NCBI GenBank assembly: GCA_903858595.1
Contig: CAIOJL010000038.1
Coordinates: 1 to 41,087 of the forward strand
Length of the DNA: 41,087 bases
Source: an uncultured Spartobacteria bacterium
GTDB taxonomy: Bacteria > Verrucomicrobiota > Verrucomicrobiia > Chthoniobacterales > UBA6821
Direction: 5' to 3'
A model generated the notes under the pieces. It searched no databases. It was not told the DNA's origin and worked only from the letters and a program-made list of their open reading frames with translations. Below, piece after piece: positions 2-4,807 of this stretch. Positions within the stretch are counted from its first letter, which is position 1, and every line of letters starts with the position of its first letter. The position numbers and the translations under genes were made by a program.

Positions 2-90
2 GGAGGGGTGGTAGAGCGGTTTATTGCACCGGTCTTGAAAACCGGAGAGGTCACAAGCCTCCGTGGGTTCGAATCCCACCCCCTCCGCCA
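2..90 (+). tRNA. tRNA-Ser (anticodon TGA)
   Basis: The acceptor stem pairs GGAGGGG (2-8) with CCCCTCC (80-86), followed by discriminator G87 and an encoded CCA (88-90). The anticodon stem CCGGT/ACCGG (29-33/41-45) holds loop CTTGAAA with anticodon TGA at 36-38, and there is a long class II variable arm typical of serine tRNAs. It would read UCA and related UCN codons. Only one base precedes it, so its promoter is outside the window. Its 3' end serves as the integration site of the adjacent island and is duplicated at 2925-2946. Confidence 0.97.
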
Positions 91-91
91 T
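70..91 (+). repeat. Left attachment site (att direct repeat, copy 1)
   Basis: These 22 bases form the T-arm 3' half and acceptor end of tRNA-Ser plus one base. They recur identically and in the same orientation at 2925-2946. Identical direct repeats of a tRNA 3' end bounding foreign-looking DNA are the classic product of tyrosine-recombinase integration, where the incoming element restores the tRNA 3' end and displaces the original copy to the far side. Confidence 0.85.
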
Positions 92-146
92 GCCTCTCGA
101 ACGACCGCCAACCCCCATAAATACAGGGTTTGCCATTTTGCGAGGC

Positions 147-166
147 GCCCTAAAAAGGGTCTTTTT
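147..166 (+). terminator. Possible intrinsic terminator after tRNA-Ser
   Basis: A short hairpin, GCCCT (147-151), AAAA loop, AGGGT (156-160, one G-T wobble), is followed by CTTTTT. It is correctly placed to end tRNA-Ser transcription, although the stem is short. It lies inside the island, so it would have been brought in with it. Confidence 0.4.
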
Positions 167-172
167 GGGCCA

Positions 173-193
173 AGTGTCCCTAAAAGTGTCCCT
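173..193 (+). repeat. Paired AGTGTCCCT direct repeats near left island end
   Basis: AGTGTCCCT occurs at 173-181 and again at 185-193, separated by AAA. A related pair lies at 2809-2827 near the other island end (AGTGTTCCT and GGTGTCCCT). Such end-proximal short repeats could be recombinase arm-binding sites. This is inferred from position and similarity only. Confidence 0.45.
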
Positions 194-226
194 CCTCGGA
201 TCGCGGAGGCACTACCCGAACCAAGG

Positions 227-1018
227 ATGTCACAAAGCGAGCACTACTCGCATATTGCTCCCAACCGGGAGCCAAAGGGGGAGATTTTTCGGTCATGGTC
301 TGCAACTATTGAATTTCTCACAAGTGGAAATGAGGCAGTCGCTGTCAAAGCAAAAGCAGAGGGCAACCCATTCAGGATCCCTTTTACTCTAAATCAAGGT
401 GTTGAATCCGCTTTAGCCTTTAAGAGGTTTCATGAAATTCGTGAAACAAATCGCATGGCCTTAGATCTTTTCTTTTCTCATTACTACACGAATGGAAGCT
501 TTATCACCCAACAGTTCACAGACATGGTTCATGCCCTTGAGGGATTACACCGGGGAGTCAGAGGAGGAAACTTTATCGATCCAAAGAAATATAAAGAGGA
601 ATTATTCCCGATACTGATCGCGGCTATTCCAGACAAGATAGATGCAGATCTTAAACAGTCGTTAGAGAAGAGGCTGCAATTTGGGAATGATCTATCTCTA
701 CGACGCAGACTCAAAGAACTAGCAAGGAGTCACGACGAGTATACCCGACAAATTATTGGCAAACCGGCAGACTTCGCCGATCTCATAGCAGTTCTACGCA
801 ATAAAGTCGCCCATGCTTTGGGATCTGAAAAAACAACCTTAAAAAATCTTATGGAGTATGTTGTTCAGCTTCATCGGGCAAAAATACTCTTTCAACTAGA
901 GATCCTTTTGCAGATTGGTTTTCCAAGGGACTTTTTAAAGGAATGTATTCGTAGGCTTGAATCGTTTGAAATCGTAGCCAGAAACGCTCAGAAGGCCACT
1001 AACGGAGAATCGGATTAA
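227..1018 (+). CDS. ApeA-like HEPN-domain protein, probably N-terminally truncated
   Basis: A 263-residue protein if started at ATG 227; the frame is open back to position 8, but that part overlaps tRNA-Ser and is not credible coding sequence. Residues ~62-110 resemble the segment before the HEPN domain of ApeA-type proteins, with an ALEGLHRG stretch. Residues ~180-235 contain RNKVAH, giving the Rx4H HEPN motif (R191, H196), followed by a helical stretch rich in Leu and Ile. HEPN proteins of this kind are RNases; ApeA acts against phage by abortive infection. The large N-terminal domain of ApeA is absent, so this may be a fragment cut at the island boundary or a naturally short form. No good ribosome-binding site precedes the ATG. 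The gene is AT-richer than its surroundings, consistent with transfer. Family assignment is by recognition, not by a search. Confidence 0.6.
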   Translation: MSQSEHYSHIAPNREPKGEIFRSWSATIEFLTSGNEAVAVKAKAEGNPFRIPFTLNQGVESALAFKRFHEIRETNRMALDLFFSHYYTNGSFITQQFTDMVHALEGLHRGVRGGNFIDPKKYKEELFPILIAAIPDKIDADLKQSLEKRLQFGNDLSLRRRLKELARSHDEYTRQIIGKPADFADLIAVLRNKVAHALGSEKTTLKNLMEYVVQLHRAKILFQLEILLQIGFPRDFLKECIRRLESFEIVARNAQKATNGESD

Positions 1019-1082
1019 AGCGCTTGGGCTACGCTGTGGTTGTTCTTGAGATTAGCTACACTGGTTTAGATTTCTAAAAAGT

Positions 1083-1100
1083 TGCTCCCGAGCGGGAGCA
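1083..1100 (+). other. Perfect inverted repeat between island genes
   Basis: TGCTCCCG (1083-1090) and CGGGAGCA (1093-1100) form an 8-bp palindromic stem separated by AG. It lies between the HEPN gene and the small HTH gene. There is no T-tract after it, so it may be an operator or an mRNA hairpin rather than a strong intrinsic terminator. Confidence 0.35.
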
Positions 1101-1134
1101 CCAAGGTAAGGAACAAAGGCTACCCTGCCCACCT

Positions 1135-1464
1135 ATGTTCCAATCCAAAAAAACAATCTCCCTTGAAGAAGAGGCATTACTCCTTGATGGACGCCGCCTT
1201 CCGGCACGCCTGACTTCAGCCGAAGTAGCGGTGGTCTTGGGGTTCCATGAGCACGATATCGCCCAACTGGTTGTCTTCAAGCTGCTGACCCCTCTCGGAA
1301 AGCCAGTTCACAACTCGCCGAAGCATTTTGCTGCCGTTGATGTCATCAAGGCTGCCCAAGACCGCGAATGGCTCTCCATGGCCACCCGCCAAATCTCCCG
1401 CTACTGGCAAAGCCGGAACGAGAAGAAGAGGGTGCCGCCTGCCTTGGAAGAACCTCTCAGTTGA
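1135..1464 (+). CDS. Small helix-turn-helix-like (excisionase-type) protein
   Basis: A 109-residue protein. Residues ~25-70 (LTSAEVAVVLGFHEHDI, then a KLLTPLG segment) look like the N-terminal helix-turn-helix and wing of MerR/excisionase-like small proteins: helix, turn at LGF, recognition helix, then a short hairpin. The C-terminal part has a WLSMATRQISRYWQSRN stretch. Proteins of this style are common in Verrucomicrobiota genomes, often near transposon or integrase genes. In this island it could regulate the downstream HATPase-STAS pair or act as a recombination directionality factor; neither is shown. The gap to the next gene is 82 bp. Confidence 0.55.
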   Translation: MFQSKKTISLEEEALLLDGRRLPARLTSAEVAVVLGFHEHDIAQLVVFKLLTPLGKPVHNSPKHFAAVDVIKAAQDREWLSMATRQISRYWQSRNEKKRVPPALEEPLS

Positions 1465-1546
1465 CAACATCCTCAGATGCAATCTTGGGATCTTTCATTT
1501 GCCCAATGACTGGAGCTAGTCTGCTTCAGGCAGTCTCCGAACAGCT

Positions 1547-2494
1547 ATGATACATTCTTTCCCTGCCATGATCTTCGAGGAAAATCTTCCCCGAGTCCTT
1601 GATCAATTGGGGGAACTAGATGGGAGTACTGAGTCACTGGAGATTGATCTCTCCAGGGCAAAGTTCTGGATTCCTTCCGCTATTGTGGCGATCTGCGCCA
1701 TGGTTACGAAATGGAGGGAAAATGGGAGGGAGGTTAGTTTCCCAAACTGTGAGCAGTGCCTGGTCTCGGGATATTTGCAGAGAATCGATTTCTTTGAGCA
1801 AATCGGATTGATGCTTCCTGAGACATTCCAGAGGCATGATCCAGGAACCTCGTTTGTTGTGATTGAGCGCATTGATCCGGGGCAAGCACGTCTTAATGAG
1901 CCACTGGCCCGCAAACTCGCGTCGTGCCTTGCTGGAACTGATGATGCTCTAGCTGATGCTTTTCGGTTTTCGGAGTTTTCAATGGGTGAACTGGTAGCCA
2001 ACTGCCAGCAACATGCGATGAGATCTGGATATGTTTCGGCTCAATATGTCGGGATGAAGGATTGGGCCCGGATCGGTATCGCGGATGCAGGAGTAGGAAT
2101 CCGCGAGAGTTTTCGTCTCGCGGAGTCACCCTTCTTTCGGGAGGGGATGAGTGATGGAGAAGCTTTGGAGATGGCTATGCAGCCTTGGTGCTCGAGTAAA
2201 AAGCATCAGAAAGGCCCTTATGGGGCTCCGGCCAATAGGGGAATCGGTCTCAAGATGGTTTGGAACATGCTCCATCAGGCTGGAGGGGAGCTTTTCATTG
2301 CTTCCGGGAATGCCTGGAGGCACTACAAAGGGGAAAAGGTGAATCATGGAGAAATGAGGGCGCGATTTCAGGGAACAGTGGTGTCCGTCAGGTTTGAGAG
2401 GGGGCAGATTGATGATTATGTAGAGATCTGGCGGGAGGCTAGCCGGGCGGTTAACTTGACGCCCGAGGAAGACTCGACCATCTTGTTCTCATGA
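1547..2494 (+). CDS. GHKL/HATPase-domain protein with STAS-like N-terminus
   Basis: A 315-residue soluble protein. Residues ~28-90 look like a STAS-type fold (LEIDLS strand, then a serine-containing helix start, then an FPNC strand and FFEQIGL). Residues ~143-285 form a GHKL ATP-binding domain: N-box ELVANCQQHA (E148, N152), G1 box DAGVGI (180-185), G2 box NRGIGLKM (230-237). There is no dimerisation/phospho-acceptor histidine domain or membrane segment, so it resembles anti-sigma/serine-kinase-type ATPases of partner-switching systems rather than a sensor kinase. It overlaps the next gene by 4 bp (ATGA), implying translational coupling to the STAS-like protein. ATG 1568 is an alternative start. 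Substrate and role are unknown. Confidence 0.7.
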   Translation: MIHSFPAMIFEENLPRVLDQLGELDGSTESLEIDLSRAKFWIPSAIVAICAMVTKWRENGREVSFPNCEQCLVSGYLQRIDFFEQIGLMLPETFQRHDPGTSFVVIERIDPGQARLNEPLARKLASCLAGTDDALADAFRFSEFSMGELVANCQQHAMRSGYVSAQYVGMKDWARIGIADAGVGIRESFRLAESPFFREGMSDGEALEMAMQPWCSSKKHQKGPYGAPANRGIGLKMVWNMLHQAGGELFIASGNAWRHYKGEKVNHGEMRARFQGTVVSVRFERGQIDDYVEIWREASRAVNLTPEEDSTILFS

Positions 2495-2796
2495 ATATGA
2501 CCATCCGTCTTTCCGAGCGGTTCGGTACCTTCTTGCTCAATGGCGATGAGGCCAATCTGCTGCGCTTTACCGAGATCGAGCCAAAGATTTCCATGGGGAC
2601 GATCGTGGAGATCGATTTCAGCGGGGTTACCAACATGACCAGCTCGTTTTGCAATGCCTTGGTGGCCACTCTGGTGGCTCACCATCCGATGGACTTTGCC
2701 CAGAAGGTGCGTTTCAAGAATTGTGATCCCCTCATTCGTGAGATGATTCTTGGTGCTGTTGCAATCGGTCGTCGTGAGGCTGCCGAGTTGACCTAG
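2491..2796 (+). CDS. STAS-like domain protein (DUF4325 type)
   Basis: A 101-residue protein consisting of one domain. The core VEIDFSGVTNMTSSFCNAL (39-57) matches the STAS/DUF4325 pattern: a strand ending in DFSGV, a loop, then Ser-Ser at the start of a helix (S51, S52), where anti-anti-sigma factors such as SpoIIAA carry their phosphorylated serine. It is translationally coupled to the upstream HATPase gene. A kinase-STAS pair suggests a phosphorylation-controlled partner switch, but no sigma factor is encoded in the island, so the controlled partner is unknown. A GGACAC/GTGTTCC inverted repeat follows the stop codon. Confidence 0.65.
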   Translation: MNMTIRLSERFGTFLLNGDEANLLRFTEIEPKISMGTIVEIDFSGVTNMTSSFCNALVATLVAHHPMDFAQKVRFKNCDPLIREMILGAVAIGRREAAELT

Positions 2797-2797
2797 C

Positions 2798-2827
2798 GGA
2801 CACAAAAAAGTGTTCCTAGGTGTCCCT
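2798..2827. repeat. GTGTCC-type repeats at right island end
   Basis: GGACAC (2798-2803) and GTGTTCC (2810-2816) form an inverted repeat around an A-rich spacer. AGTGTTCCT (2809-2817) and GGTGTCCCT (2819-2827) are near copies of the AGTGTCCCT pair at 173-193. The hairpin directly after the STAS-like gene could also slow transcription, but no T-tract follows. Confidence 0.45.
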
Positions 2828-2924
2828 TCGGGGTCGATTTCGGTATTCGACGAGTTGGCGGAGGTATTCCTTGCGTGCTCTGTAGAAGCCGATAAAATAA
2901 GGCTCTAACCCGCAAATCATCGGC

Positions 2925-2946
2925 CGAATCCCACCCCCTCCGCCAT
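2925..2946 (+). repeat. Right attachment site (att direct repeat, copy 2)
   Basis: This is an exact second copy of the 22 bases at 70-91, the 3' end of tRNA-Ser including CCA, with no tRNA 5' portion in front of it. It marks the right end of the island and is probably the original chromosomal tRNA 3' end. A 7-bp hairpin, CATCTTC (2944-2950) with GAAGATG (2954-2960), begins here and may be a remnant of the pre-insertion tRNA downstream region. Confidence 0.85.
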
Positions 2947-2974
2947 CTTCATCGAAGATGTCGTGAGTCAGGAC

Positions 2975-3445
2975 CTAGCGGGAAAGATCCCCTTGATTCA
3001 GAATCTGATACCCCTCCCCTTGCAGGACGGTCGATGCGCATTCGTTGTCATCCACATGGAGGACGAGCAGGGCTTTCCCACGGGGACGCACGAGCAGAGG
3101 GTAGCTGAAGAGGAGGTTCACCTCGGCCATCAGGAGGCAATTCAGTACGTGACCCAGATCCGCGGCTCCCTCGGCCAGTTCGACCACGAGCACCGTGGTC
3201 TCGACATAGGCAATATCCCGCTCATGCAATAACTTACCCACCAGCACGGGATCGCTGACGATCATGCGGGCAATGGCGGACTCGGCGGAATCCACGATGC
3301 TGAAGGCCAAAACAATGACTCCCTTCTGCTCGAAGAACTTCACCACCTCAAGAAGAGCCCCCACCTTGTTGTGAAGGAATATCGAGAAGTGCTTCACGGG
3401 AACTCCCGTAACGGTTTCCTTGGTGGCTGGTGAGGGCGAGGACAT
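2975..3445 (-). CDS. Tandem ACT-domain protein
   Basis: A 156-residue protein with two ACT domains, about residues 16-80 (VPVKHFSIFLHNKVGALLEV start) and 81-150 (a TTVLVVEL strand with a matching final strand ALLVLHV). ACT domains bind amino acids and regulate metabolic enzymes; here no catalytic domain is attached, so it is probably a stand-alone sensor or regulatory subunit. No acetolactate synthase or other amino-acid biosynthesis gene is nearby. It starts 4 bp after the stop of the exported-protein gene, forming a likely operon. The island's right end lies 28 bp beyond its stop codon. Confidence 0.75.
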   Translation of the reverse strand: MSSPSPATKETVTGVPVKHFSIFLHNKVGALLEVVKFFEQKGVIVLAFSIVDSAESAIARMIVSDPVLVGKLLHERDIAYVETTVLVVELAEGAADLGHVLNCLLMAEVNLLFSYPLLVRPRGKALLVLHVDDNECASTVLQGEGYQILNQGDLSR

Positions 3446-3449
3446 GGGA

Positions 3450-3938
3450 TTATTTGTAGCAGTAGACCAGAGAAAAATCGAGCGTCCCTTCGGTTGGGCC
3501 TCTCATACCCTCCACTCCGATAAAGTACTTCCCGCTTTGAGTAGGCGCAACTCCCGTGGCACTCCGTGTCCCCTCGGCATTGACCGTATTGTGCCAAAGA
3601 TCACTTTTTATGGGCTTTCCGGAGGCATCATAGACCGTGACGTGCAGCATGGCCCCGGTCGTCGGGGAGGCTGCCACAAACCAATAATTCTCTCCGGCAA
3701 AGAGCGTTACCTGAAGGAAGAGGGGTGCTCCCTTGGAGAGAGTACCGCTCCACTCACCGTCACGGATTCTGAACCCGTCGTTCTCAAAAGCCCCGGACGT
3801 TTCCAAAGCCAGCCTGCGGGGTTCCATCGAAATCGGTTTAACCACCTTGAAGAGTGAAGGAAGAGCATCCTCGGCCATCATCCTTCCGATAAAAACCAAC
3901 ACTAGGAGTACCAGCAGGAGTAGTCGTTCCTTCCTCAT
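3450..3938 (-). CDS. Exported protein of unknown function
   Basis: A 162-residue protein from ATG 3938, chosen because it begins a clear signal peptide (MRKER, then a Leu/Val run to about residue 18, then MMAEDA) and because this ATG overlaps the upstream stop as ATGA. The frame extends further upstream, but that would put 31 residues before the signal peptide. The mature part is predicted to be beta-rich, with alternating hydrophobic strands (LFLQVTLFAGENYWFVA, GKYFIGVEGM), resembling a small extracytoplasmic beta-sandwich. No catalytic motif is recognised. It probably acts outside the inner membrane together with the upstream lipoprotein. Confidence 0.65.
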   Translation of the reverse strand: MRKERLLLLVLLVLVFIGRMMAEDALPSLFKVVKPISMEPRRLALETSGAFENDGFRIRDGEWSGTLSKGAPLFLQVTLFAGENYWFVAASPTTGAMLHVTVYDASGKPIKSDLWHNTVNAEGTRSATGVAPTQSGKYFIGVEGMRGPTEGTLDFSLVYCYK

Positions 3939-4807
3939 GATTTGGAGGGGGTAGGCCCCGGAACGGGCGAAGGAATTGTCGAGGGGGCTTTTATCGAGGA
4001 GCTCAGGATCGCCTTCACCACAGCCGAGCAATCGTCATGAATCTTAGTGTAGTTTTTACGCTGGGTGTCCGTCTTGGTATCTTGAGTCTCAAGCAAGGAG
4101 GCCGTTGTTTCCATAGTTCGCTTTACCGCCGGTACCAGGGACCCTCTCTTCATACGATCGGGAAGCGAGTCGAGTTCCGTGGCGAGCTTTCTGGCTAGTT
4201 CCGGCTGATAAAGCACCCCGGCCCCCTGAAGAGAATCACTGGAAAGCACGACGCCGGTGGCGACTTCCAGGCCTCTCAGCCATGCGGCGGCGGAGGTAAG
4301 AACGACCAGATCGCGGTCTTTCTGCCCCATCATGGTGTTTTTAACCTCGTTCTCGGTGGCCTCCAGCTCATCGGCAAGAGCGTCCCAATTGTTGTTATCG
4401 GCAAATTCCATGAGACTGTTTCCCCTCCCGAGCAGGCTCTGGCTGACACCTAGCGACTTGGCAAGGGCCATCAACTCTCGGCCGACATTCTTCACCTGTT
4501 GGCCGTCCTGAGCCTCCACCGCGACATAGCCGTTGGCCGTGAGAACGCCGACGGCGAGGGCAAGCTGAGGACGCTCGGTGGTCACCGGCGCGGTGGCGGG
4601 CGTGACAAGGGTGGCCCAATTGGGTCTGCAGGCCTTGTTTAGCGCCGCAAAGACCTCGCCAGGAGATGGCACACTCAGCGCGTCCAGGAAAACGGCGGCC
4701 TTCTTCTGCGGCTCCGTCATATGGGCATTCGTAGGATCCATGGATTGGGCTCCGTGGCAACCGATGGCCATCAGCGCCAGAACGCCAAAATGTCTGCCAG
4801 TCAGCAT
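3935..4807 (-). CDS. Putative lipoprotein, unknown function
   Basis: A 290-residue protein from ATG 4807; an ATG five codons upstream is also possible. The N-terminus is a lipoprotein-type signal, with hydrophobic core FGVLALMAIG and candidate lipidated Cys17. The mature part is mostly helical and polar, with an ELEATENEVKNTM segment, and ends in a Pro/Ser-rich tail. No known domain is recognised. It is first in a three-gene minus-strand unit with an exported protein and the tandem-ACT protein. Its start is only 26 bp from the start of the divergent hrpB gene, so the two promoters must overlap or lie within coding sequence. Confidence 0.6.
   Translation of the reverse strand: MLTGRHFGVLALMAIGCHGAQSMDPTNAHMTEPQKKAAVFLDALSVPSPGEVFAALNKACRPNWATLVTPATAPVTTERPQLALAVGVLTANGYVAVEAQDGQQVKNVGRELMALAKSLGVSQSLLGRGNSLMEFADNNNWDALADELEATENEVKNTMMGQKDRDLVVLTSAAAWLRGLEVATGVVLSSDSLQGAGVLYQPELARKLATELDSLPDRMKRGSLVPAVKRTMETTASLLETQDTKTDTQRKNYTKIHDDCSAVVKAILSSSIKAPSTIPSPVPGPTPSKS

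Follow-up and report, generated by a model that had tools for sequence, protein, structure and literature searches.

The window analysed here is the whole of contig C38 (41,087 nucleotides) of the 2.35-Mb assembly GCA_903858595.1 of an uncultured Spartobacteria bacterium, and the start of this contig falls inside a tRNA locus. Analysis of this end of the window reveals an insertion of 2855 bp (positions 92–2946) at a tRNA-Ser gene, which carries four genes encoding, in order, a HEPN_Apea protein, a 109-residue helix-turn-helix (HTH) protein, a kinase with a HATPase domain and a small STAS-like protein (Table 1). The two copies of the 22-bp repeat at its ends are exactly identical. When the flanks are joined (1–91 and 2947–3460), they match an uninterrupted site in the relative G004 end to end, over 605 bp with 91% identity. 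Judged by the flanking ACT-domain gene, G004 is the nearest relative (99% protein identity); it possesses this tRNA-Ser in an identical orientation and is devoid of the element. Since the joined flanks align to this empty site, the 2855-bp segment is a true insertion and not the outcome of a chance repeat. The att repeats derived from the tRNA 3' end and the empty site in a relative are those of a tRNA-targeted integrative element; no integrase of its own is encoded within 92–2946, and one is found both in the sister contig C216 and in the relatives' versions of the element. Thus, the tRNA-Ser island bounded by a tRNA-derived repeat, its four genes and the ApeA-type HEPN domain, all proposed in a sequence-only reading of this DNA, are borne out.

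Table 1. Features of the element and its insertion site (window positions; the last row uses the numbering of the loci named there)
Feature	Position	Strand	Evidence or remark
tRNA-Ser(TGA), integration target	2–90	+	ARAGORN; empty counterpart in G004
attL, 22-bp direct repeat, tRNA-Ser 3' end	70–91	+	Repeat search
Left-end leader	92–304	+	95% identical to C216, where a tyrosine integrase gene follows
HEPN_Apea open frame, 263 residues	227–1018	+	Pfam PF18739, E 9.9e-20
Palindrome copy 1, TTGCTCCC-N4-GGGAGCA	255–274		Upstream of integrase slot
Palindrome copy 2	1082–1101		33 nt before HTH start codon
109-residue chassis protein, HTH/excisionase-like	1135–1464	+	Sequence inspection only; genus-wide, with varied cargo
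CapK/VapK-type kinase, 315 residues: N-terminal STAS-like region and GHKL (HATPase) domain	1547–2494	+	
STAS-only partner (DUF4325), 101 residues	2491–2796	+	Pfam, E 7.3e-12
Conserved right end	2820–2945	+	76–86% in G001, G002, G003, G009 and own C180
attR, 22-bp direct repeat	2925–2946	+	Repeat search; G004 empty-site alignment
Tandem-integration remnants	L047 2138–2290; L046 2375–2537; L145 2120–2282		

The kinase and STAS genes, which share 4 bp, form the cargo of the element. The HATPase domain of the kinase is matched weakly by Pfam (0.0015) and clearly by PHROG 3364 (E 1.6e-29), the kinase profile gives weak matches to GHKL kinases, and all Bergerat motifs are intact (E148-N152-H156, D180-G182-G184, N230-G232-G234 and G276-T277). 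Its N-terminal part gives weak profile matches to STAS anti-sigma antagonists (E 0.025–0.1). The family profile of the STAS protein matches Escherichia VapS (PDB 9z7o) with an E-value of 1.6e-18, and Ser51 aligns with Ser48 of VapS, the position being occupied by serine or threonine in 12 of 14 family members. Distant relatives of the pair, with 22–26% identity, occur on plasmids and phages; two scans of viral contigs recovered none. Assignment to the HEF_HK/Response_reg_2 two-component family (PMC8011034) was rejected in the absence of a Pfam match.

CapK–CapS and VapK–VapS are recently described kinase–substrate switches (EMBO J 2026; PMC13373217). CapK is activated by single-stranded DNA and phosphorylates CapS, a winged HTH (wHTH) repressor, at a conserved serine, whereas in VapKSC a VapC RNase is blocked by the tail of VapS, and its release is proposed to follow from phosphorylation (PMC13373217). 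The window pair resembles VapKSC in that an HTH-free STAS-GHKL kinase is followed by a small STAS protein in which the acceptor serine is conserved. On the other hand, the right end of the element comes directly after the STAS gene, leaving no vapC neighbour, and the 101-residue protein lacks the C-terminal extension of its counterparts at loci L094, L096 and L106, stopping about where the inhibitory tail of VapS (residues 94–116) starts. With CapK–CapS the pair shares a GHKL kinase with a STAS region, a STAS substrate, the adjacency of the two genes and a location near defence loci, but the kinase starts with its STAS-like region instead of an N-terminal HTH, the partner consists of STAS only, without a C-terminal wHTH, and no immune operon lies downstream. 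The combination of a GHKL serine kinase and a STAS acceptor with the serine at the equivalent place is also that of SpoIIAB/SpoIIAA (comparison from PMC13373217); here, however, the kinase bears an additional N-terminal STAS-like region and the island contains neither a sigma factor nor a phosphatase gene. Judged by its homology and intact motifs, the pair probably works like CapKS or VapKSC, whereas its membership in either named system fails on the features compared. Residues F40-W41 of the kinase were taken as the equivalent of the aromatic site of CapK (W68) and VapK (F54), and the kinase may likewise sense single-stranded DNA.

The remainder of the element belongs to a chassis that recurs with other cargo. 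Window positions 10–304 match contig C216 of the same genome with 95% identity, and C216 shows the order tRNA-Ser, leader, tyrosine integrase. Codons 1–26 of the HEPN frame (227–304) are leader DNA and align with C216, where the integrase comes next. This leader-derived N terminus, together with the gene order of C216, places the HEPN frame in the integrase slot, and from the alignments it is best described as a 5'-truncated insert occupying that slot. In G001 the leader passes straight into the 109-residue gene and HEPN is absent. As expected of ApeA-type proteins, which combine a HEPN_Apea domain with an Rx4-6H motif, the frame carries the motif RNKVAH (Rx4H), but it matches the PADLOC profile PDC-S58 at positions 249–447 of 461 only. 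It is therefore not full-length, the N-terminal ~250 positions of the family being absent; for comparison, the frames of clear PF18739 relatives from the phylum measure 371–460 residues from the first ATG. The truncated protein is presumably inactive. No relatives of it were found on plasmids or phages. The tRNA-Ser copy next to the C216 integrase (L010, 3256–3337) has the anticodon loop CGTGAAC, with G for U before the anticodon, and runs off the contig end; it is possibly a pseudo-tRNA.

The 109-residue protein has no Pfam family match and was found in 14 of 58 relatives, at tRNA-Ser, tRNA-Cys and tRNA-Asn sites; gene neighbourhoods, here and at the kinase–STAS loci, were called with a simple frame caller, and several contigs stop within the element. 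Five examined loci, at tRNA-Cys or tRNA-Asn, contain integrases ~40% identical to that of C216. The cargo beside the HTH gene comprises HipBA (G001, G002, G003), VapBC (G013) and AbiEii (G012, with similar genes in G007), other HipA-like genes occurring elsewhere, and contig C180 of the window's own genome combines AbiEi/AbiEii with a mere remnant of the HTH gene. The second palindrome copy belongs to the same arrangement: of the 12 loci at which the HTH gene is full-length, 10 have 32–33 nt between the palindrome and the start codon, whereas 0.1 sites per shuffled 41-kb window are expected by chance. The leader copy precedes the integrase in C216 and the HEPN frame here, and the palindrome looks like an operator. 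Further copies stand beside other genes of the window's own genome, in L012 (C14) at 2732 and 3191 and in L013 (C193) at 1560 and 1886. That the HTH protein provides the STAS protein with a DNA-binding output was considered and ruled out, since at the other loci examined the HTH gene occurs unaccompanied by the pair; the gene is a chassis component, and a joint system with HEPN or the kinase–STAS pair is not supported.

Screening of 338 genomes of the phylum identified DUF4325 (PF14213) in 25 and HEPN_Apea (PF18739) in five, and only the genome of the window has both; none of the other 24 DUF4325 genomes contains HEPN_Apea. Similarly, among 147 relatives, kinase homologues occur in four and the HEPN protein in two, both together again in this genome only. 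The nearest kinase–STAS pair, 54% identical and from another Chthoniobacterales genome, has no HEPN nearby. The genome of the window harbours a second, distant pair (L057, G000:C153, 2636–3924), also without HEPN, whose kinase is ~30% identical. The HEPN protein had no match among all frames of 26 loci in a single-sequence query of limited sensitivity. Consequently, the proposal that HEPN, HTH and HATPase–STAS genes constitute one system was rejected: the pair never adjoins a HEPN_Apea gene at the other loci sampled, an outcome that the sequence-only reading had itself named as refuting, the HEPN frame is truncated and sits in the integrase slot, and the HTH gene travels with other cargo. From the overall interpretation of the sequence-only reading the tRNA island and the ApeA-type HEPN are retained, as is the idea of a HATPase–STAS couple as a type of phosphorylation switch used in anti-phage systems, which the homology with VapS supports (PMC13373217), and only the union into one system is lost.

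The data as a whole are best explained if the element belongs, without an integrase of its own, to a family of small tRNA-targeted islands found across the genus, its cargo being a kinase–STAS pair and the HEPN frame an unrelated passenger that replaced the integrase; we assign to this joint reading a probability of about 0.72. The family chassis consists of an att site at the tRNA end, the leader, the integrase slot, the palindrome with the 109-residue protein and the right end, and its exchangeable cargo slot for toxin–antitoxin or defence genes is here filled by a pair of the CapKS/VapKSC superfamily. Most probably, DNA damage, or single-stranded DNA made by a phage, would activate the GHKL kinase, which would phosphorylate Ser51 of the STAS protein and so cause it to release a protein partner. 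Since a DNA-binding domain and a VapC-blocking tail are both missing from the STAS protein, this partner would be encoded elsewhere in the cell and act in trans, and the usual neighbours of the pair suggest that it could be a component of a restriction-modification system. Several points weigh against this explanation. No output partner emerged from the analysis; HEPN keeps both its catalytic motif and an open frame, so that a short functional protein is possible; and HEPN homologues are few, a rarity which limits the co-occurrence test. Moreover, the AlphaFold model of the kinase is unusable, with a predicted local distance difference test score of 43, the fold search with the STAS protein gave no significant match (RsbS ranked third, E 0.095), and several relatives have arginine-valine or similar residues at the F40-W41 site.

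It is possible, although we propose it only tentatively, that the tail-less, wHTH-less pair represents a third, undescribed branch of CapKS/VapKSC in which the STAS protein acts as a trans switch on a protein target; this may be an enzyme of type I restriction or, as the least likely case, the short HEPN RNase of this island. Another proposal is a role of the pair in regulating restriction, with the STAS protein binding a type I restriction subunit and the island acting in trans on such a system. Tail-less pairs are directly next to hsdR or flanked by hsdS and hsdR at L058, L087 and L093, as is the STAS gene alone at L098, an HsdM-like frame is present on contig C216, and 88 of 443 capKS are located just downstream of restriction-modification systems (PMC13373217). 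However, the visible stretch around the tail-less pairs at L057, L060, L097 and L103 contains no restriction genes, and the association may reflect nothing but a shared defence-island location. We consider this proposal rather doubtful. The arrangement at L058 (G001:C104, 214–6637) is hsdS, kinase, STAS, Fic, hsdR, and DUF3800-like frames were noticed by eye near the type I restriction loci L087 and L098.

The pair could also be a decayed vapKSC or capKS that has lost its output gene and its function. The lack of vapC and of a wHTH in the island would fit, as would the loss of the integrase and the truncated neighbour, which suggest that decay is under way. Nevertheless, both genes are open with their overlap preserved, every catalytic motif is kept, and similar tail-less pairs exist in at least eight other loci from separate genera, which argues for a stable form rather than a single loss and makes this explanation improbable. 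The model in which the STAS protein restrains the HEPN RNase until the kinase frees it, as VapC in VapKSC, has in its favour that in VapKSC a STAS protein of the superfamily inhibits an RNase, with release by phosphorylation proposed (PMC13373217), and that an intact HEPN motif and frame share one 2.9-kb element with the pair, yet it is very unlikely, given that no other locus or sampled genome combines HEPN_Apea with the pair, that HEPN lies upstream behind the chassis gene and palindrome whereas vapC is downstream of vapS, that HEPN is truncated and joined to leader DNA, and that the tail needed by VapS for blocking VapC is missing. Triads of the vapKSC type, with kinase, tailed STAS and PIN protein, occur in distant members of the phylum (L094, L106 and L096, the kinase frame of the last being broken). 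The L106 triad adjoins hsdR/hsdM, and a triad of this type is present on plasmid P5 of Deinococcus gobiensis (L158).

Some further observations concern the insertion site. In relatives such as G001, tRNA and ACT-domain gene are oriented differently to each other than in the window; an inverted or chimeric right junction in the window was ruled out, as the empty site of G004 has the orientation of the window. Relative to the ACT-domain gene, the present genome and G004 (L141) carry the tRNA-Ser inverted, unlike L144, L145 and L151, the other genus members in which both genes were seen. Remnants of tandem integrations, with ~120–145 bp between tRNA-end repeats, are found at the tRNA-Ser site or at the right end. 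At L045 (G001:C52) a truncated tRNA-Ser (4509–4547), which resembles the intact tRNA-Ser of G013, precedes a complete tRNA-Ser of the type seen in the window (4698–4786), and the element there may have introduced a tRNA gene as a replacement.

To return to the integrase-less island, it is of ordinary build, illustrating how a constant chassis carries exchangeable toxin–antitoxin cargo in tRNA islands, and its cargo is an interesting variant of a known switch. CapKS and VapKSC (2026) show that the output of one damage-sensing kinase–substrate pair can be either transcription or an RNase. Where a pair recurs with neither of these, the question arises which partner the STAS protein holds, and the place of the pair inside type I restriction operons makes this question testable.

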